The notes under the pieces: generated by a model | Databases searched by the model: none | Told to the model about the DNA's origin: nothing | The model's input: only the letters and a program-made list of their open reading frames with translations | In this document: one piece after another, positions 7,158 through 54,277 of the stretch | Layout: each line of letters starts with the position of its first letter | Position numbering within the stretch: the stretch's first letter is position 1 | Virus record (IMG/VR): IMGVR_UViG_3300011115_000717 | Coordinates: 1-64,000 of that record | Source of the DNA: a virus | DNA: 64,000 nt | Direction: 5' to 3' (one strand) | Program-made: the position numbers and the translations under genes

Positions 7158-7566
7158 AGAATATGTCCTTTTCTGTTAAAATTTGAAATTGCATTTGATG
7201 TTTTTCACAAAATTTTTCTGCTGCATTCCATTTTGCTTTATTGATTTCAAAAATTAATTTGTCTTTACTTGACGCTGATTCTTTTAGGTGAACCTGTTTT
7301 AATGGTTTGACTTCTACTATAATTGATTTGTGTATATTATTTTGTTCAACTTGAATCAAAAAATCAGGAATATATCTATGTACTTGTTTGTCAACAGGAT
7401 GAACATATGGAATTTCAATTTCCTCAAATGACCATTTTTTGATCTTTTCACTTTCATCAAAAAATTTACAAACTCTTCGTTCCCACAAAGATCTACATTT
7501 TATGGAGTTTTTAGATCCTATGTATTTGTTAGGGTTTTTAGGAGTAAATGTAGTTTTATATGCCAT
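7150..7566 (-). CDS. gp4: head completion nuclease-like protein gp4
   Basis: A 138-residue homologue of T4 gp4 (about 150 residues), needed to finish DNA-filled heads. It begins MAYKTTFTPKNPNKYIG, like the T4 start, and shows the nuclease-like pattern RSLWERRVCKFFD, IPDFLIQV (PD), IIVEVKP (E.K), and a C-terminal KWNAAEKFCEKHQMQFQILTE. The PD...(E)xK arrangement suggests an endonuclease-like fold. It starts at ATG 7566 with no ribosome-binding site and a minus-strand late box whose predicted start is three bases upstream. First gene of the minus-strand assembly operon. Confidence 0.8.
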   Translation of the reverse strand: MAYKTTFTPKNPNKYIGSKNSIKCRSLWERRVCKFFDESEKIKKWSFEEIEIPYVHPVDKQVHRYIPDFLIQVEQNNIHKSIIVEVKPLKQVHLKESASSKDKLIFEINKAKWNAAEKFCEKHQMQFQILTEKDIFCA

Positions 7567-44790: not shown

Positions 44791-45369
44791 ATGGCAAAGG
44801 ACAAAATAAAAAAATCAAAGAAACCAAAAAGCAAAGATGGAGATTACGTTGATAACTCTGTCTTGTATCAAGAGTTAGTTGAATATAAAAAGAAAAAGAA
44901 TGATGCAGAAAACTCTGGTAAAAAGAAACCAAAGTTACCTGATTATGTTGGTGACGCAATTTTAAAAATTGCAAACCGATTATCTTTTCGCCCAAACTTT
45001 GCCAATTATACCTACCGGGAAGAAATGGTATCGGATGCAGTTTTAAACTGTGTTACCTATATTGATAATTTTGATCCAGATATTTCTAAATCCCCATTCG
45101 GATATTTGACCCAGATATGCTGGTTCTCGTTTGTTCGTATAATCAACAAAGAGAAAAAAGAAAAGTATATTCAATTTAAAGTTGCTCAAAACCAAAATAA
45201 CCCAGAGTTTCATAGATGGTTTAATGAAACTTTTTCTGGAGTCGAAAATGGGTTTAAGGATGCATTTGGTATTGGTGAACCAGAAGTAGAAAAAATGGAT
45301 AAACTGCTTGAAGGTAAAAGAAAAGGTCGAAAGAAGAAGACCCAAGATGGAGGTTCCTTGAATGTGTAA
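44791..45369 (+). CDS. gp55: late sigma factor gp55
   Basis: A 192-residue protein (T4 gp55 is 185). It recognises the late box with host core RNA polymerase. The central helices YREEMVSDAVLNCVTYIDNFDP near residues 73-94 and SPFGYLTQICWFSFVRIINKEKKE are sigma region-2-like. A Lys-rich N terminus and basic C terminus flank them. It has a consensus sigma70 promoter with no leader and overlaps the gp47 gene by eight bases. The late boxes across the window are its expected targets. Confidence 0.92.
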   Translation: MAKDKIKKSKKPKSKDGDYVDNSVLYQELVEYKKKKNDAENSGKKKPKLPDYVGDAILKIANRLSFRPNFANYTYREEMVSDAVLNCVTYIDNFDPDISKSPFGYLTQICWFSFVRIINKEKKEKYIQFKVAQNQNNPEFHRWFNETFSGVENGFKDAFGIGEPEVEKMDKLLEGKRKGRKKKTQDGGSLNV

Positions 45370-48984: not shown

Positions 48985-49938
48985 GTGAGTAATGTTTCCG
49001 ATATTTCGGATTTGATTTGGGTCGAAAAGTATCGTCCAAAATCAATAAATGATTGTATTCTTCCCCATAGCCTGAAAAGCACATTTGAAGGCATTGTAAA
49101 AAACAAGAAGATGCCCAATTTGATGCTATGTGGTAAACCCGGTACAGGGAAAACCACAGTAGCACGGGCTTTGTGTAATGAATTGGATATTGACTATATT
49201 ATCATCAACTGCTCCGAGCAGAATGGTATTGATACCCTACGAACAACAATTCGTTCGTATGCATCAACCAAAGCATTGAATGGTAACAAAAAGGTTATTA
49301 TTCTTGATGAGTTTGACTATGCAAATCCTCAGTCTATGCAGCCAGCACTACGCGGTGCAATGGAAGAGTTTGCAGTCAATTGTAATTTTATTTTGACATG
49401 TAATTACAAAAGTAGAATTATTGATCCGATTCACAGTCGCTGTACTGTTATTGATTTTGTATTCCCACCCAATGACCGATCTGTAATTGCATTAAAAATG
49501 CTTGGTAGATGTCAGCATATACTAAAGTCTGAAAAGATCAAGGGTGAACCAGAAGTTTTGGCGAGTCTCATTGTCAAACATTTTCCCGATTTTAGACGGG
49601 TTATCAATGAGATGCAAAGATATTCGGCACATGGTGAGATTGATATCGGTATTCTTACCAATACAGAAGACAGCGATATTAAAGAATTGATTGCGTTCAT
49701 GCGCAAGAAAGACTTTGGTTCTTGTCGTAAGTGGGTTGCTACGAGTTCAGAAACAGGCTCTCCTGATTTTTATAGAAAGATCTATGATATCCTGTATAAC
49801 TGTCTCAAAAAGCCTTCTATCCCATCAATGATTCTGATTATCTCGGATTATCAATACAAATCTGCATTTGTGGCTGATCAAGAAATCAATAACATGGCAA
49901 TGATTTGTCAGTTAATGATGGAATGTGAGTTTGAATAA
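48985..49938 (+). CDS. gp44: clamp loader large subunit gp44
   Basis: A 317-residue AAA+ ATPase (T4 gp44 is 319). It starts with GTG 48985 after GAGG. Motifs: WVEKYRPKSINDCILP near residues 12-27, Walker A CGKPGTGKTTVARAL near residues 49-63, Walker B VIILDEFDYA near residues 102-111, and SRCTVIDF near residue 152 (the SRC arginine finger). It loads the gp45 clamp with gp62. Its stop overlaps the ATG of gp62 by one base. Confidence 0.95.
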   Translation: MSNVSDISDLIWVEKYRPKSINDCILPHSLKSTFEGIVKNKKMPNLMLCGKPGTGKTTVARALCNELDIDYIIINCSEQNGIDTLRTTIRSYASTKALNGNKKVIILDEFDYANPQSMQPALRGAMEEFAVNCNFILTCNYKSRIIDPIHSRCTVIDFVFPPNDRSVIALKMLGRCQHILKSEKIKGEPEVLASLIVKHFPDFRRVINEMQRYSAHGEIDIGILTNTEDSDIKELIAFMRKKDFGSCRKWVATSSETGSPDFYRKIYDILYNCLKKPSIPSMILIISDYQYKSAFVADQEINNMAMICQLMMECEFE

Positions 49939-50318
49939 TGCAATTAAAAGACTTTCTGAATAGTATCAATTCATCTAAAGAAAACCTATTAGATGCAGAT
50001 GTCAAATCAGAAAAATTGTATTTACCGTTTATTGTAAATAAATGTCTATCATATTTTCCAGATACATTATTTACAGTAAATCAGATTAATCAGGTACCTC
50101 ATATTGATAAAAAAATGCAATATGATTATTTGTTATACTCTGTTCGAGCCAAGAAGCGATTTGCTCCTTGGATTAAAAAGGTAGAAGATTCTAAAATTGA
50201 GTTATTAAAACAAGCCTATCATATTTCTGAAAAGAAAGCCTTAGAGATAGCAGATTTGATTAATGAAGATCAATTAGCTGAAATCCTACAATCGCAGTAT
50301 ACTGGCGGACATAAATAA
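49938..50318 (+). CDS. gp62: clamp loader small subunit gp62
   Basis: A 126-residue protein (T4 gp62 is 187), shorter than T4. The matching pattern is YLPFIVNKCLSYFPDTLFTVNQIN near residues 28-51, DKKMQYDYLLYSVRAKKRFAPWIKK near residues 57-81, then a C-terminal EKKALEIADLI helix. Such shorter forms occur in T4 relatives outside the enterobacteria. It begins on the last base of gp44. Its TAA at 50316-50318 is part of the 5' arm of a hairpin that hides the regA ribosome-binding site. Confidence 0.82.
   Translation: MQLKDFLNSINSSKENLLDADVKSEKLYLPFIVNKCLSYFPDTLFTVNQINQVPHIDKKMQYDYLLYSVRAKKRFAPWIKKVEDSKIELLKQAYHISEKKALEIADLINEDQLAEILQSQYTGGHK
50310..50317 (+). promoter_or_regulatory. possible late box CATAAATA in the gp62 end
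   Basis: CATAAATA matches the box before uvsW. A transcript starting near 50323 would lack the 5' arm of the regA hairpin. Could be coincidental coding sequence. Confidence 0.3.
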
Positions 50319-50339
50319 CTCTGTTACTGAGGAGTTATT
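50314..50339 (+). promoter_or_regulatory. hairpin sequestering the regA ribosome-binding site
   Basis: AATAACTC (50314-50321) pairs perfectly with GAGTTATT (50332-50339). The Shine-Dalgarno GAGGAG (50329-50334) is partly inside the 3' arm, and the gp62 stop codon (50316-50318) is inside the 5' arm. A ribosome ending gp62 would open the stem and free the regA site. Confidence 0.65.
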
Positions 50340-50762
50340 ATGTCGATTAATAATGATATATTTAAAGGGGTAGGTGTCCCTGTCAAACTTTTAAAACCAG
50401 ATAATTATTTGGTAATCAAAGAAACACTTGAACGTATTGGGGTTAGCCCCAAAAATAAAAAGGTTCTTTATCAATCATGTCACATTCTTCATAAAAATGA
50501 TAATTATATAATTGCGCATTTTAAAGAATTATTTAAATTAGATAATTTAAAATCAGAAGTATCAGAAGAAGATATATCCCGTCGTAATGCTATTATTAAT
50601 TTATTAGAAGAATGGGATCTGATTGAAGTTCTTGATGAAAGTTTGATGGAAAATATCATGCCAATTAATGGACTAAAAATTCTTCAGTATAGTGAAAGAG
50701 ATACCTGGGATCTTATCCCAAAATTTAATACAGGAACCCTTAGAAAATTTTTCTCGGAGTGA
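50340..50762 (+). CDS. regA: translational repressor RegA
   Basis: A 140-residue protein (T4 RegA is 122) that binds early phage mRNAs near their start codons and represses translation. Matching segments: LKPDNYLVIKETLERIGV near residues 18-35, KKVLYQSCHILHKNDNYIIA near residues 40-59, ISRRNAIINLLEEWDLIEV near residues 79-97, and DLIPKFNTGTL. It has about 14 extra N-terminal residues. It lies directly after gp62 as in T4, but gp43 is not next: 10 kb of other genes intervene. Upstream hairpin suggests coupling or self-control. Confidence 0.88.
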   Translation: MSINNDIFKGVGVPVKLLKPDNYLVIKETLERIGVSPKNKKVLYQSCHILHKNDNYIIAHFKELFKLDNLKSEVSEEDISRRNAIINLLEEWDLIEVLDESLMENIMPINGLKILQYSERDTWDLIPKFNTGTLRKFFSE

Positions 50763-50765
50763 ACA

Positions 50766-52046
50766 ATGCATAAAATTACACTGTGTATGATCGTAAAAAA
50801 CGAATCGCATATTATTAAAGAATGTTTGGAGTCAGTTGCAAAGTACATTGATTATTACGTAATCTGTGATACGGGATCAACCGATGCAACCAAGACTATT
50901 ATTAAAGAGTATTTTGATTCAGTCAATATTCCCGGTGAAATCCATGACCACGAATGGGTTGATTTCGGATTTAATAGAACAAAAGCATTTGACCAATGTC
51001 GTGGAAAGACAAAATGGGTCTTGATGATTGATGCTGATGATTATATTGAAGGTAATATGCCTACAAACTTTGATGATACTATTGATGGTTATTCCGTTAA
51101 TATCATGAGAGGTAATTTTCAGTGGAAGCGTGTTCAGATTTTTAATCTTGATAACAAGCACTGGAAATACGAAGAACCAATTCACGAGTATCCAATTGCT
51201 GAACTGCCAATGAATGTACATCACTTGAATGGTGAATATGCATTCCAAGTTCGTACAGCAGGATATCGTACAATTTCTTGTGCAACTCAACAAGAAAAAT
51301 ATTGGAAAGATTATCTTCTATTAGAAGCAGCCTTACTTAAAGATCCAACCTCTTTACGTAAACAATTCTACCTAGCACAATCTGCATTTGATTGCCAGAA
51401 GTTTGATTTAGCTGAACAAGCTTATCAGAAGCGTGTTGATATGGGTGGGTGGAATGAAGAAGTTTTCTTTTCTCAACTTCGTGTAGCCTTTTGCAGAGAA
51501 CTGCAAGGTAAACCTGTTGAAGAAGTTGCAGATGCTTTTCTGAAGTCATGGGAAATTCGACCATCAAGAGCAGAACCTCTTTATCATCTATCTTGTGTCT
51601 ATCGCAAACACGGAAGACCAGCCCCAGCGTTTATGGCTGCTGTTCAAGCGTTATCGATTCCAAAACCAGAAAATGATATTTTGTTTGTAGATTCAGATCC
51701 ATATATTTGGGGAATTTTAGATGAAATTACTTCTACTGCACACAGTGTAGGTAAATTCCATTTAGGGTTACAGGCTGCAGATAGACTATTAAATGAAAGT
51801 TTGATTCCACCGGATCAAATTGAAAGAGTTCAAAAGAATCGGCAAGCATACTACAATAAAGTTATTGAGATTCAGGCACACATTGCTGAACAAAATAAAG
51901 CTAAAGTAGAAGCACAAGCTAAAGTAGATACTAAAGTAATTCCATCTACTACATTAAGTTTGACAAAACCAACTGTAAGTATGTCACCTCCAACAAAAGT
52001 ATATGGGCAGGAACATAAATTCAAGAAAAAGAAAGTAAAAAAATAG
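50766..52046 (+). CDS. family 2 glycosyltransferase with helical-repeat region
   Basis: A 426-residue protein. The N-terminal GT-A domain has ITLCMIVKNESHIIKECLESV at residues 3-23, DTGSTDATKTI near residues 38-48, and MIDADDYIEGN near residues 88-98 (DxD). Residues 170-360 are helical with TPR-like units (FYLAQSAFDCQKFDLAEQAY and EPLYHLSCVYRKHGRPAPAF). The C-terminal 50 residues are basic and low complexity. GT2-TPR enzymes often glycosylate surface or fibre proteins. It sits between regA and the fibre genes, starting four bases after regA. Confidence 0.78.
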   Translation: MHKITLCMIVKNESHIIKECLESVAKYIDYYVICDTGSTDATKTIIKEYFDSVNIPGEIHDHEWVDFGFNRTKAFDQCRGKTKWVLMIDADDYIEGNMPTNFDDTIDGYSVNIMRGNFQWKRVQIFNLDNKHWKYEEPIHEYPIAELPMNVHHLNGEYAFQVRTAGYRTISCATQQEKYWKDYLLLEAALLKDPTSLRKQFYLAQSAFDCQKFDLAEQAYQKRVDMGGWNEEVFFSQLRVAFCRELQGKPVEEVADAFLKSWEIRPSRAEPLYHLSCVYRKHGRPAPAFMAAVQALSIPKPENDILFVDSDPYIWGILDEITSTAHSVGKFHLGLQAADRLLNESLIPPDQIERVQKNRQAYYNKVIEIQAHIAEQNKAKVEAQAKVDTKVIPSTTLSLTKPTVSMSPPTKVYGQEHKFKKKKVKK

Positions 52047-52059
52047 TATCTAGTACGAT

Positions 52060-52067
52060 CTAAATAT
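52060..52067 (+). promoter_or_regulatory. late-promoter box CTAAATAT before the collagen-like fibre
   Basis: Predicted start about 52073, two bases before a hairpin that covers the start codon at 52091. Confidence 0.6.
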
Positions 52068-52074
52068 TATACTA

Positions 52075-52096
52075 AGCCATACATTTATGTATGGCT
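52075..52096 (+). promoter_or_regulatory. 5'-terminal hairpin covering a start codon
   Basis: AGCCATACA (52075-52083), loop TTTA, TGTATGGCT (52088-52096): a 9-bp perfect stem. The start codon ATG 52091-52093 lies in the 3' arm, and the predicted transcript begins about two bases before the stem. It could instead be a weak terminator for the gene upstream (followed by TAGTTCTTTT). Confidence 0.55.
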
Positions 52097-54277
52097 AGTT
52101 CTTTTAATACCATGAATGATATATCTAAATCTATTAAACTAATTAAAGAGTGCCAATATTTAACTATTGGTTCTGATTATTTTATAGTAGATCATGTCTC
52201 CAATCCAACTACAATTAAAATAGGACATGGATTCGGTGAGATCAAATTAAAAGATACCAAAAATAATGAATTTATTTTAAATGGTAATTTAAATAAAATT
52301 GGACAATTATTTAAACCAAATAATCTCTTTGAGGTTGTTGGTGGTTCGTCCTATATTTTAAAAACTAATATTGATACTTTTCAATTAAATAGCGAATGGA
52401 AAGAATTTCCTACAGCCACTTTGGTTGAACAATTCATTGATGTTGGTGTTGGTGTTTCAAGTAAAATATTTGTTGAAAAGTCTTCAAATAAAGTTGTTAA
52501 ATTTGTTGGTAATTTAAATAAAATAAACAGTTTATTTGAAGAAATTCTTATTGCTCCTGTTACACCACATCCTGTTTTAATCGTAGAACAACAAAGATCC
52601 GTAAGAACTAAAACAATTCCCGGACCAATTGGTCCAGTTGGTTTAGCTGGCGTTCAGGGTGAGATGGGTCCAACTGGTATTATTGGTACACCAGGTACCA
52701 AAGGAGATACTGGAGAAAAAGGAGACAAAGGTGACCAAGGAGACAAAGGCGATCAAGGAGAAATTGGACCCGTTGGTGAAATTGGTCCACCTGGTATACA
52801 GGGCATACAAGGAATACAAGGTCCACCTGGACAAGATGGTAGTGTCGGTCCTCAAGGTGATGTTGGACCTCAAGGATTGGTTGGTCCGCAAGGTATCCAA
52901 GGTAAACCAGGATCGAATGGACAGAATGGCAAAGATGGAATCCAGGGCGCGATTGGACCTCAAGGTCCGATGGGCGAAAAAGGAGATCGCGGCGAGAAAG
53001 GCGAAAAGGGAGATCGAGGCCAAAATGGTCTACAAGGAATCCCAGGAGTTGCCGGTACAGTTGGACAAAAAGGCGATAAAGGTGACAAAGGAGAGATAGG
53101 TCCTATAGGAATATCTCCTGTCATAACAGCCGAATATCCTGTTATATTAAAAGAAGGAAAAATTTCTTTTGATGCTCAAAAAATAACAGCACTACTTGAT
53201 CAATTTAAAAATCAAGATATACAAAAAGCAATTGATAGTTTTGCAAAAACTGCTACACCAGGTGGTGGTGGTTTAGGTATTTTATTCCTAGGATCCAGAG
53301 TTTTAAAATCAGTTAATGATATTAATTTTACTGGTAGCGGTGTTACAGTTATACAACGTGGTAAAGGTGTAGAAGTAAATATTCCTGGTGGATCTGGTGG
53401 AGGTGGTGCAGTAAATAAAATTATTGCTGGTAGTGGAATTTTAGTTTCTCCTTCTGGTGGTACTGGTGATGTAACTATAACAAATCTGATATCTGTAAAG
53501 GCTACTGAAGGAACTATTCAAGTTGCTAATGGTAGTGATTTATTTGGAGACTCGGGATTTAGATATAATTATTCGACAGATGGTTCGTTACAGACACCAA
53601 AATCTTTTAAATTGGGAACCCTAGATCCAGATAGTTTTTTACAGTTTCATGATGGATCACAACAATTTACAGCTGCCAACACCTTTACATATGGAACAAC
53701 TGCATCACCTGGATTTACTCATGGTGATCGGTGGATGTCTTCCGATACCGGTATTGAATATGTTTATGTCAATGATGGTAATACTCCGCAGTGGGTTCAG
53801 CCTACTAATACAAGTGGTGGGCAAGCATATTCTCCAGTATATGGTTCATTCTATGACACCACAACTCAAGGTGCTACTTTAGGTAATACTGGATATGCAA
53901 TGACGTTTAATTCAACAGATTACTCAAATGGGGTATCTATTGTAAGTAATAGTCGTATAACATTAGATTATACTGGAATATATAATGTTCAATTTTCTGC
54001 ACAGTTGAATAAATCAACTGCTTCAAAGTCCCATATTGATATTTGGCTAAGAAAAAATGGAACAGATATATCAAATACAAATACTTCAATGTCTTTAGCC
54101 GGATCAGATGCTAAAACAGTAGCGGCATGGAACTTTTTTGTAGGAGTGACTGCAGGAGATTATCTTCAACTTATGTGGGCTACAGATGATACAAATAGTA
54201 ATATTTTATATCAGACCGCAACTTCTGTGCACCCAGCCACACCTTCCATCATTTTAACCGTAAATAAAACAAATTAA
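52091..54277 (+). CDS. collagen-like tail fibre protein
   Basis: A 728-residue protein. Residues 1-170 contain a duplicated unit (LNGNLNKIGQLF and FVGNLNKINSLF). Residues about 178-340 are Gly-x-y collagen repeats with a uniform GPQG/GEKG/GDKG pattern (roughly 50 triplets), expected to trimerise. A Gly-rich segment (GGGGLGILF, GGSGGGGA) links to the C-terminal domain, which has TGIYNVQFSAQLNKS and a last strand PSIILTVNKTN, like a C1q-type head for receptor binding. Late box and 5' hairpin precede it. It is the first of five fibre-like genes. Confidence 0.8.
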   Translation: MASSFNTMNDISKSIKLIKECQYLTIGSDYFIVDHVSNPTTIKIGHGFGEIKLKDTKNNEFILNGNLNKIGQLFKPNNLFEVVGGSSYILKTNIDTFQLNSEWKEFPTATLVEQFIDVGVGVSSKIFVEKSSNKVVKFVGNLNKINSLFEEILIAPVTPHPVLIVEQQRSVRTKTIPGPIGPVGLAGVQGEMGPTGIIGTPGTKGDTGEKGDKGDQGDKGDQGEIGPVGEIGPPGIQGIQGIQGPPGQDGSVGPQGDVGPQGLVGPQGIQGKPGSNGQNGKDGIQGAIGPQGPMGEKGDRGEKGEKGDRGQNGLQGIPGVAGTVGQKGDKGDKGEIGPIGISPVITAEYPVILKEGKISFDAQKITALLDQFKNQDIQKAIDSFAKTATPGGGGLGILFLGSRVLKSVNDINFTGSGVTVIQRGKGVEVNIPGGSGGGGAVNKIIAGSGILVSPSGGTGDVTITNLISVKATEGTIQVANGSDLFGDSGFRYNYSTDGSLQTPKSFKLGTLDPDSFLQFHDGSQQFTAANTFTYGTTASPGFTHGDRWMSSDTGIEYVYVNDGNTPQWVQPTNTSGGQAYSPVYGSFYDTTTQGATLGNTGYAMTFNSTDYSNGVSIVSNSRITLDYTGIYNVQFSAQLNKSTASKSHIDIWLRKNGTDISNTNTSMSLAGSDAKTVAAWNFFVGVTAGDYLQLMWATDDTNSNILYQTATSVHPATPSIILTVNKTN
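52624..53100 (+). repeat. collagen-like Gly-x-y coding repeat
   Basis: A continuous run of about 50 Gly-x-y triplets with G/A-rich imperfect DNA repeats (GG-A-GA-AA-GG type). It codes for the collagen-like shaft of the fibre gene. Confidence 0.85.

Follow-up and report, generated by a model that had tools for sequence, protein, structure and literature searches.

RegA is the general repressor of early translation in the T4 family, and in T4 it represses the translation of replication genes. How the level of RegA is set outside T4 has been little studied. Masked translation starts are known from T4, where the starts of genes e, soc, 49 and I-TevI are masked on early RNA and exposed on late RNA, and where the late promoters of gene e sit in the DNA encoding the 5' strand (PMC3014915). 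Precedents for translational coupling by RNA unfolding are the VII/IX genes of phage f1, the coat/lysis genes of MS2 and rpmI-rplT of E. coli; coupling of this type may be limited by refolding once the ribosome leaves (PMC12548453).

The locus described here lies in a window of 64,000 nucleotides, the whole stretch of viral DNA that was analysed, which belongs to an uncultured T4-like phage. The window carries the same genes in the same order as the 44-62-regA cluster of T4. The upstream neighbour of gp62 is the clamp-loader ATPase gp44, recognized by its lid domain in Pfam. The stop codon of gene 44 and the start codon of gene 62 overlap in TAATG (49936-49940), an arrangement typical of coupled genes, shortly before the regA hairpin. 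The names gp62 and regA, proposed from the letters alone, are borne out by both Pfam and PHROGs, and the RegA protein belongs to the RegA family by its PF01818 domain and by the place of its gene directly after gene 62. Behind regA, where T4 has DNA polymerase gene 43, a glycosyltransferase gene is followed by collagen-like genes (50766-52046), a cell-surface or fibre module behind the replication cluster. In T4 the regA ATG lies 1 nt after the gp62 stop codon and there is no masking structure (cost of opening the site, 3.7 kcal/mol), and the other cultured T4-like relatives that were checked have gp62-regA gaps of -4 to +4 nt; in the clade of the window the gap is 21 nt. At gaps of -4 to +4 nt, termination beside the start could give coupling without a hairpin. 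The features of the region, including two alternative hairpins called A and B, are the following.

49938..50318, + strand: gene 62, clamp-loader small subunit, 126 aa (PF16790, E 5.2e-16; phrog_225, E 1e-40)
50340..50762, + strand: regA, translational repressor, 140 aa (PF01818, E 4.3e-32; phrog_242, E 1e-44)
50316..50318, + strand: gp62 stop codon TAA, within the 5' arm of hairpin A (sequence)
50329..50334, + strand: Shine-Dalgarno sequence GAGGAG of regA, of which 50331-50334 is paired in hairpin A (sequence, pairing probabilities)
50340..50342, + strand: regA start codon, unpaired probability about 0.01 or less (RNA folding)
50308..50322, + strand: 5' arm of hairpin A, the gp62 end Gly-His-Lys-stop plus CTCT, with A50315 bulged (RNA folding; 14/14 pairs in five variants)
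50331..50344, + strand: 3' arm of hairpin A, Shine-Dalgarno GGAG, spacer, AUG and UC (RNA folding; 14/14 pairs in five variants)
50302..50331, + strand: region forming hairpin B in sister phages (folding, pair comparison)
50310..50317, + strand: candidate late-promoter box CATAAATA, predicted first base G50323 (motif, -13 to -6 spacing)
44791..45369, + strand: gp55-like late sigma factor gene (phrog_234, E 6e-49)

The sequence-only reading had placed a perfect 8-bp stem between gp62 and regA (50300-50344 reads TACTGGCGGACATAAATAACTCTGTTACTGAGGAGTTATTATGTC), with the gp62 stop codon in one arm and part of GAGGAG in the other. This stem is present: AATAACTC (50314-50321) pairs with GAGTTATT (50332-50339) around a 10-nt loop, and the TAA at 50316-50318, GAGGAG at 50329-50334, the ATG at 50340 and CATAAATA at 50310-50317 all lie where they had been placed. 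The size of the structure, however, was understated. The predicted RNA fold has 14 pairs between 50308-50322 and 50331-50344; A50315 is bulged, the last pair is U-G, and the regA AUG is included. The AUG is fully buried because CAUAA (50310-50314) pairs with UUAUG, which makes CATAAATA largely the strand opposite UUAUG. GGAG and AUG are paired with a probability of about 0.99, and the predicted hairpin A covers the regA site as a structure that would block the downstream start.

As in T4 e, soc, 49 and I-TevI, the Shine-Dalgarno sequence and/or the AUG is predicted to lie in a helix whose 5' strand belongs to the read-through part of the RNA, and, as with the late promoters of gene e, the candidate box CATAAATA sits in the DNA of the 5' strand. 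The gene concerned is a different one, regA, and unlike in those T4 genes the 5' arm holds the stop codon of a translated upstream gene, so that ribosomes could open the arm. Unlike that of gene e, the late promoter here is only a candidate and departs from the perfect consensus. The likeness to f1 VII/IX, MS2 coat/lysis and rpmI-rplT is that translation of the upstream gene would break a structure blocking the downstream start, and also that the 21-nt gap keeps the downstream Shine-Dalgarno sequence outside the assumed ribosome footprint. The window differs from these systems in that the stop codon itself lies in the helix, in that the pair is the T4-like gp62/regA, and in that the sister phages have two alternative hairpins that exclude each other.

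The regA site costs 13.2 kcal/mol to open, which ranks second of 131 starts (mean 4.5, s.d. 2.6), the starts being simple gene calls made for this analysis on the 108-kb record (107,928 bases). With a larger context the cost is 13.8 and the rank third, the genome median being 4.35. The 36-nt fold at the regA start has a z of -3.2. A null was built by resampling the gp62 codons synonymously and drawing the intergenic bases at random, with AGGAG, AUG and the regA residues held fixed; 9 of its 4000 draws were at least as costly to open as regA. The same null applied to single lineages gave 0 to 25 of 3000 draws for seven of eight variants and 78 of 3000 for the remaining one (L011). Fold energy alone is not unique, since 0.5% of all 37-nt windows of the genome are equally stable. 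The distinctive features of the hairpin are its position on the start site and its conservation, rather than its fold energy.

Conservation was followed in 80 RegA relatives from IMG/VR, to which a pattern scan added L109, another copy of the window's own variant; a second RegA query of IMG/VR returned the same close relatives and no further close variants. The close clade consists of nine distinct variants including the window, with gp62 DNA about 65-75% identical between lineages, and all nine mask the regA site, five by hairpin A, the type of the window, and four by hairpin B. In the five, all 14 pairs of hairpin A are kept at a gp62 DNA identity of about 66-70% between the main lineages, while the third positions of conserved codons are only about 0.53-0.66 identical and the loop bases vary. 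Much of helix A is already fixed by coding, Shine-Dalgarno sequence and AUG. There is one wobble change and no double compensatory change in helix A among the five variants; the case for its conservation therefore relies on the null, on the variability of the loop and on the replacement of A by hairpin B in sister phages.

Hairpin A is unformable in four variants (L002, L006, L004 and L013), and hairpin B forms there. It joins 50302-50312 with 50321-50331, CAAU also pairs with some of GGAGUUG, and the stop codon stays in the loop; as the two hairpins share bases, they are mutually exclusive. All pairs of hairpin B are kept in the four variants, with five one-sided changes and one double change from A-U to G-C, in which a synonymous gp62 change (GGA to GGG) is matched by an intergenic one. 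In the window, the sequence allows 7 of the 10 hairpin B pairs examined between 50302-50311 and 50322-50331, and hairpin B is not predicted. All of this conservation evidence comes from a single clade, that of the nine variants, and their tree does not order A and B or fix the deeper branching.

Opening costs are 10.9-18.5 kcal/mol in all the close variants and 0.6-10.0 in the more distant relatives; strong masking is confined to the close clade and absent from the distant relatives and from T4. In cultured phages, searched by DNA and protein, every regA falls below 60% protein identity, so the clade has no cultured member. A pattern scan of bacterial genomes for close relatives gave no regA match by a simple RegA-motif check of the downstream protein.

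The best reading of these data is that the masking hairpin probably couples regA output to gp62 translation. On a read-through mRNA from gene 62, the last gp62 codons, the stop codon and CTCT would fold onto the Shine-Dalgarno sequence, spacer and AUG of regA, and 30S subunits are predicted to be unable to load on the folded site. A ribosome at the gp62 stop codon would cover the whole 5' arm and free the regA site, where either a newly loaded or a scanning ribosome would initiate. As the site would be freed by the ribosome that terminates gp62, regA output would follow gp62 translation, an RNA-unfolding form of translational coupling. In the geometric model the gp62 stop codon lies inside the 5' arm, so that an upstream ribosome would disrupt the structure. 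The shield was modelled with the gp62 stop in the A site and with its end at -16, -12 or -10 from the AUG, a footprint assumed from general knowledge of ribosomes; the remaining opening cost is 2.3-6.4 in all nine variants, near the genome median of 4.35. Because accessibility comes near this median once the 5' arm is removed, we infer coupling with good support. The earlier proposal that terminating ribosomes open the stem and that regA follows gp62 stands to this extent, backed by the energetics, the null and the conservation across five lineages. In the clade with the 21-nt gap, the hairpin would then replace gene proximity.

A further proposal was that CATAAATA allows a second regime of regA translation. 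This would resemble T4 gene e: the main effect of the hairpin would be to keep regA silent on early read-through RNA, and CATAAATA would be a genuine late promoter read with gp55; its transcript, begun at about 50323 and devoid of the 5' arm, would yield late, uncoupled RegA. We regard this regime as the weaker part of the model; it is possible, compatible with the layout and not exclusive of coupling, and as an account of the locus in its own right it is somewhat doubtful. What held of the proposal is the position of the box, the presence of a gp55 gene, by which a T4-type late transcription system is part of the gene content, and the predicted loss of masking from 50323. T4 late promoters cover -13 to -6 (PMC1524935), and with this spacing the +1 of CATAAATA is G50323, just past the 5' arm. 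This G is invariant in all nine variants, and a transcript beginning with it lacks the 5' arm of either hairpin type, its regA site costing 3.5-6.5 to open. In T4 gene e, too, the late promoters lie in the DNA of the 5' strand (PMC3014915).

The motif itself fits less well. The clearest late motif of the genome is CTAAATA, found upstream of 11 starts against 1.2 expected, among them those of head closure, baseplate wedge, scaffold and major capsid genes, and it matches the late promoter of phage Aeh1 (PMC1524935). TATAAATA was rejected as a window-wide late motif since it is not enriched (10 against 12.8), and CTAAATA was found in its place. CATAAATA occurs upstream of a start only once, at regA, and its C at -13 is a deviation, of a kind tolerated at some T4 late-promoter sites (PMC2988020). 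It does fit NATAAATA, the form used by cyanophages (PMC2984593), and among the 7-mers enriched ahead of starts ATAAATA takes second place (11 found, 2.4 expected, the CATAAATA site counted). The box is moreover coding sequence (HK*) and part of the arm complementary to the AUG, so its conservation is not creditable to a promoter alone. CATAAATA is not proven as a promoter, since CATAAATAA has two other roles here: it encodes His-Lys-stop at the end of gp62, and it is complementary to the regA start.

Among relatives whose gp62-regA gap is 15 nt or longer, 7 of 12 clusters carry NATAAATA in the 100 nt before regA; where the gap is shorter or the genes overlap, 1 of 21 does (Fisher p 0.0012 with the clade of the window, clusters not fully independent); 0.9 are expected by shuffling, and without the clade the count is 6 of 11. 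On this pattern of sequences, a late regA promoter is a credible recurring feature among the relatives. Long-gap relatives with TATAAATA upstream of regA are L133-L150, L158, L161-L169, L176, L179, L187, L196 and L198; their box is often 1-3 nt past the gp62 stop codon, and it is almost never seen in relatives with overlapping or close genes. In relatives with TATAAATA, however, the promoter is placed 44 to 77 nt ahead of the start codon, and the opening costs are low to moderate, so that the layout differs from that of the window.

Two observations concern CTAAATA elsewhere. At window positions 7566 (-), 12614 (+) and 15162 (+), and at L115:14666 (+) and L116:2756 (-), it stands 15-16 nt before an ATG for which a simple scan finds no Shine-Dalgarno sequence. 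If +1 falls some 12 nt past the C, the late mRNAs of such genes, including head closure and baseplate wedge, would be almost leaderless. The largest opening cost of all starts belongs to a collagen-like gene at 52091, with a hairpin AGCCATACA/TGTATGGCT (window 52060-52115) and CTAAATA at -31. The predicted first base of its transcript precedes the hairpin, which would therefore stay in the late RNA; the start codon of this gene may be miscalled.

Taken with coupling, the 9-base CATAAATAA might serve three roles at once, as the end of gp62, as part of the arm that buries regA and as a late promoter, with RegA tied to the clamp loader early and freed late and the clade swapping hairpins; this combined picture is offered tentatively.

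Less likely again is an autogenous operator, in which RegA would bind its own mRNA at the AU-rich UUAUUAUGU around the start, with the hairpin adjusting when this site is unpaired. RegA operators overlap the AUG and are AU-rich; the T4 sites do so, and the site in the window has UUAUGU-like letters in common with the SELEX consensus AAAAUUGUUAUGUAA, while RB69 RegA favours UAA repeats, and the loop of the sister hairpin B is AAAUAAUA (PMC3014915). The known sites are, however, without structure (PMC3014915), whereas that of the window is buried; the window RegA is distant, about 38% identical to the T4-group protein, and the operator match is short and AU-rich. Around the AUG, UUAUUAUGU is similar to the SELEX consensus of T4 RegA, so autoregulation by RegA may act in addition to coupling.

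The hairpin could also be a by-product, with stop codon, Shine-Dalgarno sequence, AUG and AT-rich spacers complementary by composition and of no regulatory effect, but this is improbable. It would accord with the want of compensatory change in helix A and with an almost identical core hairpin (ATAACTCT-N8-RGAGTTATTATG) that precedes unrelated genes on other phage contigs (L273-L277). Those genes, however, encode HNH and SegE-like GIY-YIG endonucleases, a class already known for masked starts (PMC3014915). The 9 in 4000 of the null, the recurrence of low values in other lineages, and the keeping of masking by two different hairpins in one clade when it is absent outside likewise speak against chance.

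Hairpin A, a stable intergenic stem-loop, is very unlikely to serve gp62 and regA as an intrinsic terminator or as a signal for RNA processing: the end of the stem lies inside the regA coding region, the stem is not followed by a U run (AUGUCGAUUAAU), and the terminator scan lists none here. An Rfam search of the hairpin gave no family match.

The proposed control resembles known T4 controls and is new at regA; a literature search that reached few subscription papers found no published hairpin or coupling at gp62-regA. In T4, RegA represses the translation of replication genes, so the supply of the repressor would here be tied to the translation of one clamp-loader gene. If true, translation of the clamp loader and the RegA repressor would be linked mechanically, with a possible late switch in addition. 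In the T4-like phages regA would then be wired in at least two ways: in some it lies close after gp62 or overlaps it, in others a gap parts the two genes and a late-type box often stands near the regA start.
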